Of a stretch of 31,897 bases of DNA, positions 2,890 to 23,770 are shown one piece after another. The stretch is from a virus. The stretch covers positions 1 through 31,897 of the IMG/VR virus record IMGVR_UViG_3300022074_000215. One strand, 5' to 3'. Each line of letters opens with the position of its first letter. The first letter of the stretch is position 1. The notes under the pieces were generated by a model. The model made no database searches and had not been told where the DNA came from. It saw only the letters and a program-made list of their open reading frames with translations. A program made the position numbers and the translations under genes.

Positions 2890-3612
2890 GTGTCGTTAGT
2901 ACAAAGAATCACAATGACTGATGCCAAAGTCAAATTTGGCAACCTATCATTAAACAATCAATATCAAGTTCACTTCGCTGGATTTAATTCAAGCATTGTA
3001 AATTACATCCGAAATAATCTTGGAATACTTAATGCAGACGATTTTATCTCTCGTCAGATGGGTATCCTTTGTTTTGATGCGTCATTACCTACAACTGCTT
3101 TAGCAACTGCAGAGGTCAAAGATAATTTTATGGGTGTTCCTCAAGAATTTGCTCATTCTAGATTATATACAGATATTGATTTTTCTTTCTATGTTGATAA
3201 GGATTATACTCTACTAAGAATATTTGAAGGATGGATGGATTATATAACCAGTGGTGCAGAGAATGAAGTTGGAGACTTACAGAAACCATTTTATCGTAGA
3301 ATGAGATATCCAGATACTTATAAAGTATCTTCAATGTATATTTCTAAGTTTGAAAAAAATCTTGATCGTGCGTTATCATATCAGTTTATCAATGCATTTC
3401 CAAAGTCAATCACACCAATACCAGTGACATATGGAAACGCTGATATATTAAAGGTATCTGTGAGTTTTAACTATGACAGATACGTCGTTAATCGTAAAAG
3501 AAGACAACCAAGTCTTTTATCTACTGGTTTAAATCTGTTTAATTCATTTAGATCAAGTGAGAGTAGACCTGAACCATATAATTCTAATAGACCAGAGACA
3601 GTAGACACATAG
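2890..3612 (+). CDS. gp54-like baseplate tail-tube initiator / tail-tube-fold protein
   Basis: The 240-residue protein has the tail-tube fold pattern shared by T4 gp19 and gp54: SLPTTALATAEV, a strand with DIDFSFYVDKDYTLLRIFEGWMDYI (blocks DIDFSFYVDKDY and LLRIFEGWMDYI), then FINAFPKSITPIPVTYGNAD and VSVSFNYDRYVV. T4 gp54 carries the same order (P-E-N-R-L..., A-M-Q-D-W-V, C-I-P-I-S-V-S-A-P-E-L, T-F-A-Y-R). gp54 starts tail-tube growth on the gp48 cap. I chose GTG 2890 because AAAGG at 2877-2881 is a good ribosome site 8 bases upstream. ATG 2914 is the alternative. A gp19-like tube protein cannot be fully excluded, but length (240 versus about 163) argues for gp54. Confidence 0.6.
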   Translation: MSLVQRITMTDAKVKFGNLSLNNQYQVHFAGFNSSIVNYIRNNLGILNADDFISRQMGILCFDASLPTTALATAEVKDNFMGVPQEFAHSRLYTDIDFSFYVDKDYTLLRIFEGWMDYITSGAENEVGDLQKPFYRRMRYPDTYKVSSMYISKFEKNLDRALSYQFINAFPKSITPIPVTYGNADILKVSVSFNYDRYVVNRKRRQPSLLSTGLNLFNSFRSSESRPEPYNSNRPETVDT

Positions 3613-3661: not shown

Positions 3662-4390
3662 ATGCCATTACCCAAGATTAATACTCCAACGTATGAATTG
3701 ACTCTTCCTTCAAATAAGAAAAAAGTTAAATACCGTCCTTTTTTAGTCCGTGAAGAGAAGATATTAGTTCTTGCTTTGGAATCTGAAGACCAAAAACAAA
3801 TTACTGACGCGATTATACAAATTATTGGTGATTGTTTAATTACAAAAAATATTGACGTAACCAAGTTACCTACTTTTGATATTGAATATTTGTTCTTAAA
3901 TGTGAGATCAAAATCAGTTGGTGAAACAGTTGAAGTAAATGTTACCTGCCCTGATGATGGTAAAACTAAAGTTGAGACATCTATCAATATAGATGATATT
4001 AAAGTTATAAAGGATAAAAATCACAAGTTAATTGTTCAACTTGACGATAAGTATTCTATGAAATTGAAATATCCAACATTAGATCAATTCATTGAAAATA
4101 ATTTTGATTTTGAAATGGCAGAAGCGAAAGAATCAGTTTCAGCAGCGATGTCGATGCTATCAACATGTATTGATATGATTTATGATGATCAAGAAAGTTG
4201 GGATGCATCTGAAAGCACAAAAGAGGAACTTGATGAGTTTATTGATCAAATGAATACTAAACAATTTCAAGAGGTTGAACAGTTTTTTAAAACTATGCCT
4301 AAATTAAGTCATACGTTAAAGGTTAAAAATCCTCAAACTGATGTTGAATCTGAAGTTGTATTGGAGGGTCTGGCAAGTTTTTTCAGCTAG
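3662..4390 (+). CDS. 26: gp26 baseplate hub assembly protein (probable tail-assembly chaperone)
   Basis: The 242-residue protein matches the T4 gp26 baseplate family: N-terminal PLPKINTPTYELTLPS, then KYRPFLVREEKILVLALES, a zinc-free VNVTCPDDG segment, and an acidic helical C-terminal half. In T4, gp26 is genetically needed for hub assembly. The stop TAG (4388-4390) follows TTT TTC AGC. The heptamer T TTT TTC (4378-4384), a 6-base spacer and a strong hairpin predict a -1 frameshift into the gp51-like frame, giving a 302-residue fusion. No clear Shine-Dalgarno lies before ATG 3662. Promoters lie at 3602-3642. The tape-measure-like gene follows, as with lambda G/GT/H. Confidence 0.88.
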   Translation: MPLPKINTPTYELTLPSNKKKVKYRPFLVREEKILVLALESEDQKQITDAIIQIIGDCLITKNIDVTKLPTFDIEYLFLNVRSKSVGETVEVNVTCPDDGKTKVETSINIDDIKVIKDKNHKLIVQLDDKYSMKLKYPTLDQFIENNFDFEMAEAKESVSAAMSMLSTCIDMIYDDQESWDASESTKEELDEFIDQMNTKQFQEVEQFFKTMPKLSHTLKVKNPQTDVESEVVLEGLASFFS

Positions 4391-4419
4391 GTATGGCTCA
4401 TATGAGTCTGGAGTCATAC
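4378..4419 (+). promoter_or_regulatory. Predicted programmed -1 ribosomal frameshift signal
   Basis: The slippery heptamer T TTT TTC is at 4378-4384, in the correct phase (zero-frame codons TTT and TTC, gp26 residues 240-241). Spacer AGCTAG (4385-4390) is 6 bases and includes the gp26 stop. Stem GTATGGCTC (4391-4399) pairs with GAGTCATAC (4411-4419): nine pairs with one G-U, around an 11-base loop. After slippage reading continues CAG CTA GGT ATG GCT, which is the frame of the gp51-like gene. All three elements of a classical -1 frameshift site are visible; efficiency is unknown. Confidence 0.8.
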
Positions 4420-4569
4420 TATAAAGTTAACTTTGCCTTGGTTCAGCATCATAAATACTCTTTGACAGAGATAGAAAATATGATGCCTTGGGAACGAGAT
4501 GTCTATGTAACTCTCTTGAAACAATATATTGAAGAAGAAAATCTAAAAGCACAACAACGTAAATCATAG
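4393..4569 (+). CDS. 51: gp51-like baseplate hub assembly protein, short; probably made as gp26-gp51 frameshift fusion
   Basis: This frame of 58 residues (MAHMSLESYYKVNF, then ALVQHHKYSLTEIENMMPWE, then helices ending KAQQRKS) resembles the short 'baseplate hub assembly catalyst' proteins of marine T4-like phages. Its pattern of hYSLxEIExMxPWERDxYVxLL is that of tail-assembly-chaperone C-terminal (T-type) domains. T4 gp51 is much longer, so the name is tentative. ATG 4393 lies inside the frameshift hairpin and has no spaced ribosome site. ATG 4402 is in the loop with AGGT 9 bases upstream. Expression as a -1 fusion with gp26 (302 residues) is likely, with some independent initiation possible. 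The stop overlaps the next gene's GTG by one base. Confidence 0.72.
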   Translation: MAHMSLESYYKVNFALVQHHKYSLTEIENMMPWERDVYVTLLKQYIEEENLKAQQRKS

Positions 4570-6194
4570 TGGCGAAAGCATTACCAAAAATTAATGACAT
4601 AAAGAAAACACCTATGAAAGAGGTGTTAGGGGAAGGTGATGCACCTAAAAAAGGAAGAGGAAGACCTAAAAAATTACAGACACCTGCAGAGGTAGAGGCA
4701 GATATAAATCTAAGAGAATTTCAAAAACTTAAGAAAAAATTTGATAAATTAAAAGCATCTAAAAAGGCAAAGATAACTCCAGCAAAACTTTCTCCTGCAT
4801 TTTACGCATTAGATGCAGGACTTAAATTAGAGGAGGAAAACAAAGTCCAGACAGAGAAGATAACAAAATTAATTACAATACAAAAATTACATAGAGAAAA
4901 TCATCAGAAAGAAAAATCAGAAATTGCAGAGATTAACAATGTGTTGACTGGCATTGCTGAATTTATCAAGTCAGATTATGAGTCAAGAGTTGACGCAGTA
5001 GATACAGATAATAGTCAAATGAGAGAAGACGCTGCTAAAGACGATCAAGCGAAAGAAGAAAAGGGATTAGAAGCAACTGGTAAGAAAACAGGTAATAAAA
5101 TAGGTAAAACAGCACAAGGTATTATATCTCCAGTTAAAGGTGTATTTCAAAGATTGATGGATGCAGTCACTGCAATAGGTCTAGGTATAGGTGCGAGTGC
5201 TGCATTCAAATTTCTTGCAAGACCAGAAATTTTTGAGAAGTTAACTGGTGTTTTTGATTTTATTGGAAAACATTTTAAGTGGATTCTTGGTGGATTAGGT
5301 GCAATTGCTTTGATTGGAATAATTGGGCCTATTATTGCGATTGGATCTGCTATTGGAGGTGTTATCGCTGCAATCGCGGGTGCTGCTGTCATTGTTGCTA
5401 AGATTGCTTTGATCATAGGAGGTATTATATTAGCAATCAAAGGTGCTACTGATGTATTCAAATGGTTGCGTGGTGATTCACTAGGTGATTCAGTAGTGTC
5501 AGATGCGAGAAAAGAAAATAGAGAGAGTATGAAAGAACAAGGTGTTGAAAAGGCACATATAAGTGGTATTTTTGGTGAAAGATATCGTGTGGAGCGTGAT
5601 GGTGAAATGGTGAAATTAAAGTATAAAGAACTCACACCAGATGAACAGGCAATTGTTGATCAGTTCAAAGCAAGAGATCAGGAAATTAAAGATACAGCAA
5701 AAGAGAGAAGGCAAGAAAAAAGTGCAGCAGAGAAGAGAATAAAAGGAGAAAGAAAGGAGGAACTACAGAGACTGAATATGGAGGCAAAACAGACTAAGGA
5801 TTTTACTGCTAAAAAAGCATTTGAGAAAGAGACAAAAAGATTAATTAAAGAAGAACATGGTGAAATTGATAAAAAATATGAAGAGACATTTACTGCAAGA
5901 AAGGTTGGGGGAGATGCTTCTGGATTAACAATGGTCGGTGAGGATGGCCCCGAAATTGTTGATTTCAAAACTGCTGTAAACATAGTACCGGCACATCGAA
6001 CTCAGGAGACTCTAAAAACTCTAGGGGAAAGTGGTGGAACAAATGTTATATCGATGGATTTACCTCCAATTACAACACCTGCACCAGAGGTCAATGTAGG
6101 AACACCTCCTGCTACTACAGAACAAAGTATTCCTTCGATTAACCCATTTAACACTTACATGGTGCTTACCCCAGAAATTCTAAAGATTAGTTAA
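4569..6194 (+). CDS. Tape-measure-like protein with hydrophobic centre
   Basis: The 541-residue protein has a basic N-terminus (KKGRGRPKK near residue 28), coiled-coil-like charged helices (about 45-165), a hydrophobic Gly/Ala/Ile block (about 195-300, several possible membrane-spanning helices), a second charged coiled coil, and GLTMVGEDGPEIVDFKTAV at about 453-471. The GE-x-GPE motif is a familiar C-terminal feature of tail tape-measure proteins. Length is close to the T4 tape measure gp29 (about 590). Position directly after the gp26/gp51 pair also fits. Start GTG 4569 overlaps the upstream TAG; no later start gives a better context. The tape measure sets tail length and may enter the host envelope. 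Confidence 0.68.
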   Translation: MAKALPKINDIKKTPMKEVLGEGDAPKKGRGRPKKLQTPAEVEADINLREFQKLKKKFDKLKASKKAKITPAKLSPAFYALDAGLKLEEENKVQTEKITKLITIQKLHRENHQKEKSEIAEINNVLTGIAEFIKSDYESRVDAVDTDNSQMREDAAKDDQAKEEKGLEATGKKTGNKIGKTAQGIISPVKGVFQRLMDAVTAIGLGIGASAAFKFLARPEIFEKLTGVFDFIGKHFKWILGGLGAIALIGIIGPIIAIGSAIGGVIAAIAGAAVIVAKIALIIGGIILAIKGATDVFKWLRGDSLGDSVVSDARKENRESMKEQGVEKAHISGIFGERYRVERDGEMVKLKYKELTPDEQAIVDQFKARDQEIKDTAKERRQEKSAAEKRIKGERKEELQRLNMEAKQTKDFTAKKAFEKETKRLIKEEHGEIDKKYEETFTARKVGGDASGLTMVGEDGPEIVDFKTAVNIVPAHRTQETLKTLGESGGTNVISMDLPPITTPAPEVNVGTPPATTEQSIPSINPFNTYMVLTPEILKIS

Positions 6195-7318: not shown

Positions 7319-8580
7319 TGTCACAGAAAGCATCAGCACCAGCAATATATGAAGTTCTTACGATAAGTAAGGATGGTAAAGAGTCAGTGTTAAAAGCAAA
7401 GACTATCAACTTCAACTATTACGAAAGTTTATATTCTCCCGTAATTACTGCTAACATGATGTTTCTTGATGCAGGTGGTTCTACTCCTGATAAGAAAGAA
7501 AATTTAACAAGTATTAAAGATGGTTTACCAATTACAGCGTTAGAAGATTTGCAGGTTAAGATACAAACAAAATTTGGAACACTTGATTTTACGAAAGACC
7601 CATTCAAGGTAACAAGTTCTCCTATAATGCATCAGGAATCTAATCGTCAAACTGTTTTGCTTAATTTGGTGAATAGTAAAGAAATAAAAAATTCAGAGTT
7701 ACCTATTTTTGATCGATTTGTAGGTAAAATTAGTGACACAGTTACTAAGATACTTCAGCAAAAACTTCAAATAAGTCAAGATAAAATTAATGTAGAGTCA
7801 ACAAAAAATTCATATGGTGTTACTGGAAAAGGTAGAGGTGCTCTAAATATTGTTCTTGATTTATGTCGTAGATCAGTTCCTGTCAAAGGTGACGCTGGAT
7901 ACTTCTTTTTTCAAACACAAGATGGTTTTAACTTTAAATCAATAGATGCATTATTATCCCAAGATTCAAAACAAAAATATATTTACTCTGGTGCTTTGAA
8001 AGAGAACCTTGATAATAGTGATAATGATTTTAAGATTGTTTTAGCACCTACGGTCAAAAAAGATCAAGATATAACACAGGCATTAAAAAATGGAACATAT
8101 GTAAATCGAAATGTATTTTTTAATCCACAAACTTTTGAGCATAGTGAAATTGTGTTCAGTGTTAATAAAGATGGTGTCAAGAAAACTTTAGGTGGAGATT
8201 TACCAATTAAACCTGAAGAAGTAGAGGGATTTACAAAAACAAATCATCATATACTGGATATTGGTTCTTTTGAGGCACAAAATCTCACACCAAATAATGA
8301 TCCAAGAGAGTGGCAAGCAACATCTCAGATGAGATATAATTTACTTCATTCTATTGTGATAAAAATACAAATTCCATGTAATGCTGAATTAAGAGCTGGA
8401 GATATTATTGAAATTGAATTAGAATCACAGCAAGAAGATAAGGTTGAATCTCCAACTGATGAACAACAGAGTGGTAAATTTTTAATTTTACATTTGTGTC
8501 ATCACTTTGATACTCTAAGATCATTTACATCTTTAACACTGGTTCGTGACTCTTATGGTATAAGGAGGAGTAAAGACTAA
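7318..8580 (+). CDS. gp27-like baseplate hub protein
   Basis: The 420-residue protein looks like the hub family of T4 gp27 / P2 gpD. There are two beta-rich domains: YEVLTISKDGKESVLKAKTI with an N-terminal strand pair, then a middle part with DRFVGKISDTVTKIL, GRGALNIVLDLCRRSVP and FFFQTQDGFNFKSIDALL (the 'read back the state vector' part of gpD-like proteins), and a last domain with LRAGDIIEIELESQ and HHFDTLRSFTSLTLVRDSYG. In T4, gp27 forms the trimeric ring above the gp5 spike. Length is near gp27 (391). One-base overlaps on both sides and the OB-fold gp5-type gene next support the assignment. Confidence 0.7.
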   Translation: MSQKASAPAIYEVLTISKDGKESVLKAKTINFNYYESLYSPVITANMMFLDAGGSTPDKKENLTSIKDGLPITALEDLQVKIQTKFGTLDFTKDPFKVTSSPIMHQESNRQTVLLNLVNSKEIKNSELPIFDRFVGKISDTVTKILQQKLQISQDKINVESTKNSYGVTGKGRGALNIVLDLCRRSVPVKGDAGYFFFQTQDGFNFKSIDALLSQDSKQKYIYSGALKENLDNSDNDFKIVLAPTVKKDQDITQALKNGTYVNRNVFFNPQTFEHSEIVFSVNKDGVKKTLGGDLPIKPEEVEGFTKTNHHILDIGSFEAQNLTPNNDPREWQATSQMRYNLLHSIVIKIQIPCNAELRAGDIIEIELESQQEDKVESPTDEQQSGKFLILHLCHHFDTLRSFTSLTLVRDSYGIRRSKD

Positions 8581-9308
8581 TGAAAGAAGAATTATTTGAT
8601 AGTTTTTTTACTGGTGGTGCAGAGTTCTGGATCGGTAAAGTTGTAGCGATTGATGCTCAGAAACAAACTGCACAAGGATTCAGTTGGGGTTGGAGATATA
8701 AGGTTCGTATTTTTGGTACATATTCTAATAGTGATAATATTGAAGATAAAGATTGTCATACAGCGATGGTCATGCTTGGTGTGACTGATGGAAGTGGTGG
8801 TGGAGGAAGAACAAGAGCAGTTCGTATTACTCAACATGATATTGTATTTGGTCTGTTCATGGCTCCTGATCAGAATTTCCCTGTAATTATGGGTGTTCTT
8901 GGTCGAAATAAAAGCACTGTCACTGGAGGTGGTAAGTTTGGTATTCTCTCTGGATTTACAAAGTTCTTACAAAGAGGATTAACTGAAAATCAAGAATTTA
9001 ATGAATGTGATTCACTTAATGTTCCGAAAGTAAAAGAAAATAGTTCTAAAGGTAGAGGTAGAGGTAGAAGTGTAAATCGAAATCAACTATCACAAATAGG
9101 AGAAACAAGCACCGAATCTAAAGTTAACACAAGAACAGAACCAGAGGGATCAACTCAATATGATACAGAGGGATTAGATCAAAGTGAGATTGATGCTGCT
9201 GTCGCAGAGGAAAAGGAATTCATACAGACACAGAATGGTAATTATAAGGACAGTAAAATTATTAATGAAACTGATAATACTGGTGAAAGTGCACTTGAAA
9301 TCTTCTAA
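8580..9308 (+). CDS. gp5-type OB-fold spike base protein lacking lysozyme domain
   Basis: The 242-residue protein begins with an OB-fold of the gp5/gpV/VgrG type: FWIGKVVAIDAQKQTAQGFS, WRYKVRIFGTYSNSDN, then VRITQHDIVFGLFMAPDQNFPVIMGVLG. T4 gp5 has the same order (FVGVVEDR...GRVRVRVVG...GTRVYGHFLDKWKTNGIVLGTYGG). There is no lysozyme domain or C-terminal beta-helix; instead a GRGRGRS segment and an acidic low-complexity tail follow. A strong ribosome site AAGGAGG (8563-8569) lies 10 bases before ATG 8580, one of the best in the window. It probably docks on the gp27-like ring and carries a separate spike, perhaps the protein at 11526. Confidence 0.68.
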   Translation: MKEELFDSFFTGGAEFWIGKVVAIDAQKQTAQGFSWGWRYKVRIFGTYSNSDNIEDKDCHTAMVMLGVTDGSGGGGRTRAVRITQHDIVFGLFMAPDQNFPVIMGVLGRNKSTVTGGGKFGILSGFTKFLQRGLTENQEFNECDSLNVPKVKENSSKGRGRGRSVNRNQLSQIGETSTESKVNTRTEPEGSTQYDTEGLDQSEIDAAVAEEKEFIQTQNGNYKDSKIINETDNTGESALEIF

Positions 9309-9333: not shown

Positions 9334-11523
9334 ATGGCAGAAATTACAACAAAACAAAACGAAACAGGAGAGTTAGATATTTTTACTACACCACCTCCTA
9401 ATTTCCTTTCGTCAGATCAAATAGAAAACTTTTCTAAAATTATAAAGGATAATTCACCTTATCTTCAAGAACAGATAACAGACTTGAAGAAGAGATTTCC
9501 TGAAGATCTTGGTGATATATCACCATTTAGTGACGCAGAAATTTCTGATTTTTCTGGTCTAGTTTCTGATGAGTTTCAAGATAGATTATCACTCTATGAG
9601 AAAATTGCACTACCAGATGTCACTTCGATATCTTCTACAACTGGGTTTACAGTGATTGCTGCAGATCCAAATAGTGCTCGATTTGCTGAAAGAACTGATA
9701 CAGCAATGAAGAATTTCTTCAAAGTTGCATCAAAAGTTGAAAACTTTAATTTAGATTTATCAACTGAATTACAGAAATTGACTAAAATGGTCGGTAACTT
9801 TTCAAAAACATTTATTGGTAAAATATCAGACTCATTGGGACAAGGACTCGTTTCTTTTATTGATACCAGTATGATGAATCAAGCAAATTTGATATTTAAA
9901 CAATATCAACTTGCACAACTTCCTAGATCATTAGCATTAAAAGCAGTTAAATCATTTCAATCTTCATTAATCGGCCCAACCAACAAACTCTTTGATGGTC
10001 TTGGATGTTTAACAGATAAGGTGGTTGGTGCGATGTCTGGTGTTATTAGTGATATGTTGACATCTATGACTAAAAATATGTTAAATGCACCAACTTGTGC
10101 AACTCAACAATTTATAGGTGCTTTAACAAATAAAATTGCTGATTCAATGGATAATGTAATCGGCCCACTTCTTGGGCCCATCCAAAGTATTTTAAGTCCA
10201 ATTGGTGCAAAGTTTCCTATAAAGGATAAAATCATGGGTGGTATAGATTTTATGAGTAAGGTCGGTGGTTTATTTAAATGCACATTACCAGAGAAGCAAA
10301 CATCATCATTTAAGTATGCAATTGATGGATTACTCAAGAAAGATCTTGGAGGAGATGAGCATAAGTCATTATTAGATGGTGCAATGAATGCTGCTGCAAC
10401 AACAAATTCATTTTTAGACAAGGCAGCATCTGGATTATCAAACTTTGAAAAGGCATATGGAAAGTGGTCAATATTTGGATCTCCAGTAGATAGTGGTGGT
10501 GCTCATGAAAGTGCTTTCACTGGTGGTAATTGTTATACGGGAAATGATTTTGCATGTGGCCCAGCAGATGTAGATTTCTTTGGAGGAAATGGTGGTAGTG
10601 GTGCTACAGGAAATGTTATTTTAGGTAATTTCTTAACACGATTTGATAAAGATGATTTATATGGTAGTTTTCAAAAAACAGCAAGTATAATTGGAGTTGA
10701 GATTACTGACCCTGGCTCAGGATATACTTCACCTCCACTTATTTCTTTTGGAGATAAGTGTGATCAGGGATATGGTGCTTATGGTAAAGTAAATATTGAT
10801 AAAAATCCAGCATCACCGACTTACGGACAAGTAACATCAGTCACAATGACAAGTATTGGTGAGAATTATCCTATTGATGCTTCTAAAACAACTGTTAACG
10901 GACAGTTCCCAGAAGTCTATATTGATGATATAATAATAGAAGATCCCGGATCTAACTACCAAGAAGGAGATTCTATCAGTGATGATATACGACCTATAAT
11001 TGAAACAAACCCAGAATCACCTAATTTTGGTAAAATTGTAGCGATTGAAATCGTTGAACAAATACCTTATAATAGATTTCCAAATATGAATGTAACATCT
11101 GAAACTGGTTTTGGAGCAGTTATTCGACCAATTATGTCAACTATTAAGACTCAACCTGTACCTGAAGAGGTTGTTGAAAATGGTGCTGTTAGAAGAGATA
11201 GAGCAGTCAGAGATATACAAGGTCGAAAGGTAAGTCAGGTATTCAAGGTTGTACAATGTGTTGGAACGTATCCAGCGATGACAATCACACCACTTACTGT
11301 ACAGAAACCAATTATTCAAGATATAGAAGAAACACCAGAACCACCAACTCCAGAGACAAATGTTCCCGACACCACAACCCAAACTATTCCAAGTGCTGAT
11401 ACTACAACTCCAGCAGTTGATAACACAAGTCAACAAGCGACTGGACAGAGTAACACTTCTACTAATAATAACAATACTGGTAGTAGCGGGTCTGAGGGAT
11501 CAGGTGGGGGTTACGGATACTAA
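9334..11523 (+). CDS. Large virion structural protein (baseplate/tail), function unknown
   Basis: The 729-residue protein has an alpha-helical N-terminal half (about 1-380), with long helices, two Gly-rich turns and Cys residues at a GCLTD and APTCATQQF, then a Gly-rich linker (about 385-430). Two beta repeats follow with ITDPGSGYTSPP (about 457-468) and IEDPGSNYQEGD (about 535-546), and a Thr/Pro/Ser/Asn/Gly tail ending GGGYGY. The x-DPGSGY motif recurs in phage baseplate and fibre proteins and also occurs in the 2106-residue protein of this window. A gene between the gp5-type OB protein and the spike-like protein suggests a baseplate or hub location. No enzymatic motif is visible. Confidence 0.7.
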   Translation: MAEITTKQNETGELDIFTTPPPNFLSSDQIENFSKIIKDNSPYLQEQITDLKKRFPEDLGDISPFSDAEISDFSGLVSDEFQDRLSLYEKIALPDVTSISSTTGFTVIAADPNSARFAERTDTAMKNFFKVASKVENFNLDLSTELQKLTKMVGNFSKTFIGKISDSLGQGLVSFIDTSMMNQANLIFKQYQLAQLPRSLALKAVKSFQSSLIGPTNKLFDGLGCLTDKVVGAMSGVISDMLTSMTKNMLNAPTCATQQFIGALTNKIADSMDNVIGPLLGPIQSILSPIGAKFPIKDKIMGGIDFMSKVGGLFKCTLPEKQTSSFKYAIDGLLKKDLGGDEHKSLLDGAMNAAATTNSFLDKAASGLSNFEKAYGKWSIFGSPVDSGGAHESAFTGGNCYTGNDFACGPADVDFFGGNGGSGATGNVILGNFLTRFDKDDLYGSFQKTASIIGVEITDPGSGYTSPPLISFGDKCDQGYGAYGKVNIDKNPASPTYGQVTSVTMTSIGENYPIDASKTTVNGQFPEVYIDDIIIEDPGSNYQEGDSISDDIRPIIETNPESPNFGKIVAIEIVEQIPYNRFPNMNVTSETGFGAVIRPIMSTIKTQPVPEEVVENGAVRRDRAVRDIQGRKVSQVFKVVQCVGTYPAMTITPLTVQKPIIQDIEETPEPPTPETNVPDTTTQTIPSADTTTPAVDNTSQQATGQSNTSTNNNNTGSSGSEGSGGGYGY

Positions 11524-22608: not shown

Positions 22609-23078
22609 ATTTTAAAAGATCATTTAAAAAGTGTGAAGAATTTAGAATATGTTGTGCCTATGGAGATAAAGGAGTTGTTTATGTTGAAGAGCATGAAAAG
22701 AATAAAACATTATATTCAATACAAGTAAAAGGTTCTGGTAGATGTGCTACTGTCTTTAGTTCTGATTATATTGAGGGAAATGAAAATGATGCTAACTTTG
22801 GATGTATGAAACCATATATCGGTAAACATCTTATCTTTGAATCCTATGAACCTTTTATCCAGTATGGATTTAGCACTTTAAGTTACGATCAAGATTGGGA
22901 TGGTGAACTTGTAAAGGGATCATTTCAAGGTAACGAGAATAGTTGGTTAGTATGTTTCAAAGGTAATCCGATAATAAATGGTATCGAACTTAAAGTTATG
23001 GATTATGCAAAACTAGATAATAAACATTATGATGTACAATTAAATGATTCCTTAGTTGGTGTATTCACAAAATTATGA
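22605..23078 (+). CDS. Unknown protein in oxygenase operon (157 aa)
   Basis: I do not recognise a family. The protein looks beta-rich with a compact fold: FRICCAYGDKGVVYVEEHEK, LYSIQVKGSGRCATVFSSDY, HLIFESYEPFIQYGFSTLSY, WLVCFKGNPIINGIELKVMD. There are five Cys residues (CCAY, RCAT, GCMK and one late Cys), unusual for this phage, but no known metal motif. No HxD iron-binding motif is present, so it is not another 2OG enzyme. ATGA overlaps on both sides keep it in strict co-translation with the oxygenases. Confidence 0.65.
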   Translation: MNFKRSFKKCEEFRICCAYGDKGVVYVEEHEKNKTLYSIQVKGSGRCATVFSSDYIEGNENDANFGCMKPYIGKHLIFESYEPFIQYGFSTLSYDQDWDGELVKGSFQGNENSWLVCFKGNPIINGIELKVMDYAKLDNKHYDVQLNDSLVGVFTKL

Positions 23079-23770
23079 CCCTTAAGATAACAGATAATGT
23101 AACTAGAATTGAAAAAGAGGTTCAAGATGGTGATTTTAATTTAAATTTAAAAGATCACATATTATATCTACCATCTTTTATCAATTCTGATGTATGTAAA
23201 GATATAGTGAATAATTTAAAAAATGTCGGACTTGATAAATCCACACCATATACTGATGGGTTATTAAATGATTATACAGATTCTTATTTTGATCCTGACA
23301 TTTCTACAATTACAGATATAAAAAATAAAGTAAGTCAAGATGCTTTAAAATTATATGCAGAAAAAGTTAGAGCATATGATTGGTCATATCATAACTCAGA
23401 TAAATTTTTCCCATCAGAAATGATTGTAAGAAGATATAATAATAAATCTGAATTTAGTTATCATTATGATGATATTGTTGAGGAAATATTCCCACATTGG
23501 TTTGTTAGAAGAAAGAATATATTAACTTGTAATGTCTATTTAAATGATAATAATGAATATGATGGTGGTGATTTACATTTTGCATCCTGTAATCTTACAT
23601 TCAAACCAAAGATAGGTGATGTTATACTTTCACCATCAAACTGGATGTTCTTTCATAAAGTAAATGAGATTACATCTGGAGTGAGATACTCTGGTACATA
23701 CTGGTATTATTATGGTTCAGATAAAAAAGTTGGAAAAGGTATTAGTCATAGTAAAAACTTTTTAAAATGA
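23075..23770 (+). CDS. 2OG-Fe(II) oxygenase, prolyl-4-hydroxylase type
   Basis: The 231-residue protein has YLPSFINSDVCKDIVNNLKN near the N-terminus, then the catalytic beta-helix: EFSYHYDDIVEEIFPHW (His130-x-Asp132), NVYLNDNNEYDGGDLHFAS, KPKIGDVILSPSNWMFFHKV (His194) and SGVRYSGTYWYY (Arg204 for the oxoglutarate carboxylate). All four expected ligands are in place and correctly spaced, so it is probably active. The DGGDL motif and order match the P4H/PKHD group. The substrate is unknown; the operon context next to fibre genes suggests a phage structural protein or host target. Confidence 0.86.
   Translation: MTLKITDNVTRIEKEVQDGDFNLNLKDHILYLPSFINSDVCKDIVNNLKNVGLDKSTPYTDGLLNDYTDSYFDPDISTITDIKNKVSQDALKLYAEKVRAYDWSYHNSDKFFPSEMIVRRYNNKSEFSYHYDDIVEEIFPHWFVRRKNILTCNVYLNDNNEYDGGDLHFASCNLTFKPKIGDVILSPSNWMFFHKVNEITSGVRYSGTYWYYYGSDKKVGKGISHSKNFLK

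Follow-up and report, generated by a model that had tools for sequence, protein, structure and literature searches.

A conserved slippery heptamer and a probable -1 frameshift joining gp26 to a gp51-like domain in marine T4-like phages

The gp26 locus and its slippery heptamer

The window, a stretch of 31,897 nucleotides of viral DNA (IMG/VR record IMGVR_UViG_3300022074_000215), carries on its plus strand, where the rest of the gp26 locus also lies, a tail tube protein gene at 2890-3612 (PF23849, E 8e-18; phrog_45 tail tube, E 7e-38), and directly 3' of it gp26 at 3662-4390. The 242 amino acids encoded by gp26 match PF12322 (E 3e-73) and phrog_150 (E 3e-80) and would constitute the short form of a tail assembly chaperone (TAC-N). 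The 3' end of the gene reads AGT TTT TTC AGC TAG, and the protein ends in LASFFS. Codons 239-241, AGT TTT TTC, place the heptamer T TTT TTC at 4378-4384 in the X XXY YYZ phase, one codon ahead of the TAG stop (4388-4390), which closes a spacer of 6 bases (4385-4390). A -1 slip on the heptamer would continue with CAG CTA GGT ATG, and this frame (4384-4569) is open until the stop at 4567-4569, yielding a fusion of 241+3+58 = 302 residues. The stop of gp26 is followed by a hairpin at 4391-4419, with arms at 4391-4399 and 4411-4419 and a loop of 11 bases, which spans an in-frame ATG at 4393. The heptamer at gp26 codons 240-241, the spacer including the stop, the nine-pair hairpin over ATG 4393 and the 302-residue fusion in a frame open to 4569 had all been named in the initial annotation, and the sequence bears them out.

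The continuation in the -1 frame resembles gp51 and would form the C domain of the chaperone (TAC-C). Its 58 amino acids match phrog_634 (E 5e-29), a family named 'baseplate hub assembly catalyst'. A second match, to positions 241-278 of phrog_150 (E 2.7e-6), the family of gp26, suggests that some members hold both parts in one protein. By membership in PF12322, phrog_150 and phrog_634, the proteins of the window fall within the T4 gp26/gp51 family. The 58-residue frame can also be read from its own ATG (4393-4569), located two bases past the gp26 stop (TAG GT ATG); the only possible ribosome binding site for this ATG is an AGG one base upstream. The next gene, at 4569-6194, starts with the last base of the gp51 stop and encodes 541 amino acids with charged ends and a long hydrophobic middle. 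Its match to a tape measure family (phrog_4197, E 0.032) lends weak support to a tape measure gene, and the genes 3' of the locus in phages phiM19 and Syn33 match tape measure families with E 1.8e-5 and 2.2e-10, respectively, the Syn33 gene having better matches to families named endolysin. The setting of the site is thus firm on the side of the tail tube gene and tape-measure-like, on weak matches, on the downstream side.

Among the 26 selected plus-strand ORFs of the window, the site is the single case of T TTT TTC in phase, and T TTT TTN is found in phase five times in their 9,417 codons. The bare motif shows no enrichment in the window, with 10 occurrences on both strands against 15.0 expected, so the evidence for the site lies in its position, phase and conservation.

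Two further arrangements were observed elsewhere in the window. The adjoining ORFs at 8580-9308 and 9334-11523 match positions 16-200 and 256-654 of the tail lysozyme family phrog_1922, a pattern as if a gp5-like gene had been split in two. An in-phase T TTA AAA ends at the stop of the ORF at 23075-23770, and the next ORF runs from 23767.

Conservation of the slip site and of the downstream frame

A first scan returned 80 loci, of which 75 were used, the matches in L033, L071, L076, L077 and L079 being cut at a contig end. All 75 loci with uncut gp26 ends, read by eye, have an in-phase heptamer, either T TTT TTC or T TTT TTT. The wider set joins these loci with those of a wider scan, nine named phages and two contigs from bacterial bins. 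A closed gp26 frame was obtained in 167 of 174 records; in the five loci above and in L091 the frame extends past the contig end, and T4 (L090), missed in a reading of forward frames only, was checked separately. Counting heptamers in phase and at most 45 bases from the gp26 stop, we find T TTT TTN in 164 of 166 fetched loci and, since these loci include duplicates (for example L019 and L171), in 98 of 100 representatives at 80% protein identity. With the second copy of the window included, the count is 165 of 167 records (T TTT TTC, T TTT TTT or T TTT TTA), 148 of which share the distance between heptamer and stop seen in the window. The representatives carry TTTTTTC in 75 cases, TTTTTTT in 21 and TTTTTTA in two; the two records devoid of the site are Vi01 and D531. 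The named phages, 29 in number, are a sample of the phage collection and no census. Two contigs binned as Saprospirales and Actinomycetota genomes (L171 and L172) carry the phage locus and are probably phage contigs in metagenome bins; the L171 contig and the IMG/VR contig of L019 are of equal length (18,731).

The codon preceding TTT varies between relatives (AGT, GAT, AAT, TCT, GCT, GGT), but its last base is T throughout. Seventy-one sequences were aligned by codon, and of the 233 gp26 codon columns represented by at least 60 of them only two have an invariant third base. These are residues 239 and 240, whose codons end within the first four bases of the slip site; residue 239 itself varies despite its invariant third base. 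The pattern points to selection acting on the RNA, beyond the protein alone. The placement of the slip site is far beyond chance, and the invariant third-base columns rule out a chance motif.

A C-domain profile derived from the nearer loci matched 164 of 167 records, and every match lies at the gp26 stop in the -1 frame; no C domain was detected by the profile in the +1 frame of the records examined, and a +1 frameshift was rejected on this ground. The three records without a match were L121, where the contig ends, L089 and L088. In a later check the profile stayed below significance in BUCT608 (L089, E 0.21), V45v66 (L176, E 1.7) and D531 (L088, E 0.078), and the C domain of these three phages is a reading by eye.

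Start codons ahead of the core of the C domain were scored in the interval from the upstream in-frame stop to the core, which includes sequence 5' of the heptamer and is thereby lenient towards starts; four loci lacking the scoring motif (L039, L044, L121 and L085) were left out. No ATG, GTG or TTG is available in 42 of 160 loci and 36 of 95 representatives, only GTG or TTG in 33 loci and 31 representatives, and ATG somewhere ahead of the core in 85 loci and 28 representatives. In the many relatives devoid of a start codon, slippage is the only ordinary route to the whole C domain.

The gp51 records of cyanophages Syn33, Syn19 and S-P4 (L082, L083 and L184) give truncated proteins annotated from an internal Met, while the conserved -1 frame begins at the slip site, and no gp51 is annotated in the records of Aeh1 and AsFcp_4. 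Passages of the comparative study by Sullivan et al. (2010; PMC3037559) put cyanophage gp51 at about 20% of its usual length and list it as missing from Aeh1. Slippage from gp26 would explain both the short cyanophage gp51 and its apparent absence from Aeh1, the missing part being gp26 itself.

Two explanations dispense with slippage altogether. The run of T could be kept merely for two phenylalanines needed at the end of gp26, and the Phe-Phe pair is indeed nearly invariant. A pure coding constraint of this kind is contradicted by the third-base pattern: the first Phe is always TTT, and the preceding codon is always T-final whatever its residue. Elsewhere in these genes Phe is encoded by TTT in 791 and by TTC in 307 of 1,098 codons, Phe-Phe is written TTT TTC in only 11 of 108 instances, and the three of eight T4-type gp26 genes that keep Phe-Phe all use TTC TTT. 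The chance that this explanation holds is negligible. The other explanation treats gp51 as a small protein in its own right, whose translation is coupled to the gp26 stop and begins at ATG 4393, the heptamer being incidental. The closeness of this ATG to the stop agrees with coupling, as do the ATG overlapping the stop in KVP40, BUCT608 and others, the separate short gp51 annotated in GenBank records, and the 85 loci with an ATG somewhere ahead of the core. Coupling offers no start, on the other hand, in the 36 representatives without one or in Aeh1, and would have to rely on GTG or TTG in a further 31; gp51 of Syn33 and Syn19 is annotated from an internal Met only, ATG 4393 of the window sits inside the stem of the hairpin, and the third bases of the slip site are invariant. 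We regard coupling as very improbable, although re-initiation at ATG 4393 after the stop may still occur in the window itself.

Programmed -1 frameshifting at the 3' end of gp26, producing a short and a long form of the chaperone, is thus the reading in which we place high confidence. Most ribosomes would terminate at 4388 and release the 242-residue TAC-N, that is gp26, and a minority, shifted back one base at T TTT TTC, would bypass the stop and complete the 302-residue TAC-NC, composed of gp26 and the gp51-like C domain. By analogy with the G/GT proteins of lambda, both forms might hold the tape measure protein, probably encoded by the next gene, during tail assembly and be gone from the finished tail.

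The hairpin downstream of the stop

The stem starts 6 bases past the heptamer and contains nine pairs, one of them G-U, with a possible tenth G-U pair between 4390 and 4420. Folded alone, the hairpin has a predicted energy of -10.0 kcal/mol, reached by 1 of 200 shuffles; with the flanks included (4385-4430) 8 of 200 shuffles fold as well, and the longer fold of 4360-4440 is unremarkable (z -0.73, 49 of 200). Compared with synonymous recodings of the same peptide, folding is stronger at p<0.05 in 38 of 97 representatives, where about 5 are expected, and the window itself has p 0.010. The weakest representatives in this test form no structure at all.

Conservation of the stem was followed at the pair positions of the window in 40 distinct sequences from loci with at least 48% gp26 identity. 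At least 9 of 11 pairs form in 27 of these sequences, and only 3 to 6 pairs in the other 13. The proportion of paired cells is 76.8%, against 72.6% in shuffles, above all 500 shuffles and every slid version of the stem. Double-changed cells number 13 against 5.6; none of the 500 shuffles reaches this count or the covariation score. Pairs changed on both sides show no excess (4 against 2.7 in shuffles, reached by 92 of 500), nor do pair types (58 of 500 shuffles reach the observed number), and the control slid by -2 has more double-changed cells, 19, than the true stem. Whole stems with a changed pair are found in L159 and L147 (G-U to U-A) and in L035 (U-A to G-C). Columns 8/26 hold six U-A cells, four of them in sequences not forming the stem and the other two in L159 and L147.

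These figures bear on the possibility that the slip site is real and the hairpin a by-product of coding constraint with no part in slippage. A by-product agrees with the many heptamer-bearing relatives devoid of a comparable hairpin, with the 13 of 40 nearer sequences that form a partial stem, with the unremarkable numbers of double-side pairs and pair types and the richer slide of -2, and with the restriction of whole U-A stems at columns 8/26 to two sequences. Against it stand the excess over synonymous recodings, which control for the encoded peptide, the paired and double-changed cells and covariation score beyond all shuffles, and the three stems kept whole through a changed pair. We consider the by-product explanation doubtful, if still a serious contender, and the stem may stimulate slippage.

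The hairpin was rejected as a universal element of the signal, being absent in many relatives that carry the heptamer. The initial annotation had suggested checking relatives for a stem kept with compensating changes. Within the clade of the window such a stem is supported, by the 27 of 40 sequences with at least 9 pairs and the three changed pairs; in many relatives the stem is missing. To judge from its distribution, the stem looks like an addition at the level of the clade.

Relation to T4 and to other tail assembly chaperones

A different arrangement is seen in eight phages whose gp51 is a separate protein of about 250 residues (T4, CGG4-1, JS98, DP45, JK32, kvi, Ac42 and 50AhydR13PP). T TTT TTN is absent from the final 45 bases of gp26 in all eight, and the -1 frame of their gp26 gives no match to the C-domain profile (best E 2.0). 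In CGG4-1, A AAG GGG occurs in phase 31 bases ahead of the gp26 stop. T4 gp51 matches the whole of PF12322 with residues 1-201 and phrog_634 with residues 147-246, and its match to phrog_150 extends to position 280, while T4 gp26 matches only PF12322 and phrog_150, the latter to position 235, and has no phrog_634 part. As read from these profile matches, T4 gp51 is a genome-encoded N plus C form. The T4 proteins are homologous to those of the window; T4 has two divergent genes, one of them holding both parts, and no slip site.

T TTT TTN in phase, followed by a short -1 frame, occurs in 16 other named phages: AG-345-L05, Syn33, Syn19, S-P4, phiM19, Aeh1, AsFcp_4, KVP40, K491, Aeromonas 65, BUCT608, V45v66, Atu_ph04, RHph_Y68, ORM_20 and SRB7757. 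The C domain is recognized at E below 1e-5 in 14 of the 16 and is not significant in BUCT608 and V45v66.

A third class comprises 23 records, some of them nearly identical: phages Vi01, KP6, rabagast, D531 and Cygsa01 and 18 IMG/VR contigs found with the Vi01 protein. In all of them the C domain lies in the -1 frame and no tandem heptamer is present; the profile match has E 1.6e-4 or lower in 22 of the 23 and stays below significance in D531. No relative emerged when the D531 protein was used for a scan. At this Ackermannviridae-like junction (L087, L179, L180, L088, L211 and L185-L202) the stop overlaps TAATG in some records and TAATT in others, and is preceded by ATT TTC, or by CTT TTC in D531. 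These records speak against the frameshift reading: the initial annotation had held that relatives keeping both parts without the heptamer would refute it, and such relatives exist among the distant Ackermannviridae-like phages, though not among the nearer relatives of the window. Taken together, the three arrangements allow a tentative and rather improbable reading in which T4-related phages have three routes to the long form: a slip on T TTT TTN, a separate full-length gene, or an uncharacterised Ackermannviridae-like route. On this reading the stem may also lock the internal ATG in the clade of the window, so that no free C domain is made there. For the third route, equally doubtful candidates are slippage on the conserved ATT TTC, initiation at AUU, or a C domain made on its own.

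An AlphaFold2 model of gp26, computed from 71 sequences, has a mean pLDDT of 90.8. Its best match in the PDB is the HK97 tail assembly chaperone 2OB9, a weak one (Foldseek E 0.9) that aligns 84 residues with gp26 1-86, the first third of the protein, at 12% identity (Z 7.7, rmsd 4.0), where Z under 8 may reflect a common arrangement. A second structure comparison returned 3FGX (Z 8.0), 2OB9 (Z 7.7) and 3KLU/YqbN (Z 7.3), with the next rows at 4.8 and below, although Z values of this size can reflect no more than a common arrangement; we take 3FGX and 3KLU/YqbN, both uncharacterised, to be prophage tail chaperone-like proteins. Among the named viral models that gp26 matches, most belong to the baseplate hub or its assembly, and the remainder are largely uncharacterised. 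Sequence searches of the PDB, run with alignments of gp26 and of the C domain, yielded no match at E <=1. The modeled fold of gp26 thus weakly resembles the HK97 chaperone.

The initial annotation had proposed that gp26 and gp51 of this phage are a G/GT-type chaperone pair joined by a -1 slip. The proposal is supported by the conserved slip site, by the C-domain starts missing in many relatives and by the N plus C parts of T4 gp51, with weaker backing from the HK97-like fold and from the gene order, firm upstream and weak downstream. In lambda G/GT, a -1 slip near the end of a gene lying between the tail tube and tape measure genes gives a short and a long chaperone form, as proposed for the present locus; lambda differs in its slip heptamer and is not known to need a clear hairpin. 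The conserved tail frameshift is said to have been treated by Xu, Hendrix and Duda in 2004. The tail assembly chaperones of T4-like phages were reportedly identified by Vladimirov and colleagues in 2022, according to whose abstract, reportedly, several T4-like groups retain frameshifting and T4 uses genes 26 and 51.

Two points of the initial annotation fail. The hairpin is a feature of the clade only, and such a pair is not undescribed, as frameshift-made chaperones of T4-like phages are already in print. A passage of PMC12846349 cites Vladimirov, Gautam and Davidson (Virology 2022, 566:9-15) for poly-T slippery sequences in T4-like TAC-N genes, and a passage of the PRFect paper (PMC10885494) cites the same work for T4-like phages with a short and a separate fused long gene and no frameshifting. 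As far as these citing papers convey it, the published short and long forms and poly-T signals are of the kind seen here, and the principle is already known. PMC12846349 also argues, in the part concerned, for a -1 frameshift at an invariant GTTTTT 5' of the tape measure gene in the similar locus of phage Adele, a member of Vandenendeviridae and so of another family than the phage of the window. In listings and some passages of the literature on a gp26/gp51 frameshift or chaperone, no paper was recognised on the site in marine phages. What the present analysis contributes is breadth across uncultured marine relatives, tests of third bases and start codons, a stem at the level of the clade and a comparison that sets the locus against T4-type phages.

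If the frameshift reading holds, two T4 proteins assigned to 'hub assembly', whose role is unclear, would find a place in the general scheme of tail chaperones. In passages of a review of the T4 tail (PMC3004832), gp26 and gp51 are hub assembly chaperones and gp51 is absent from the particle; the same passages mention recent genetic work that supports gp26 as a part of the hub and thereby argues against a gp26 chaperone that is only transient.
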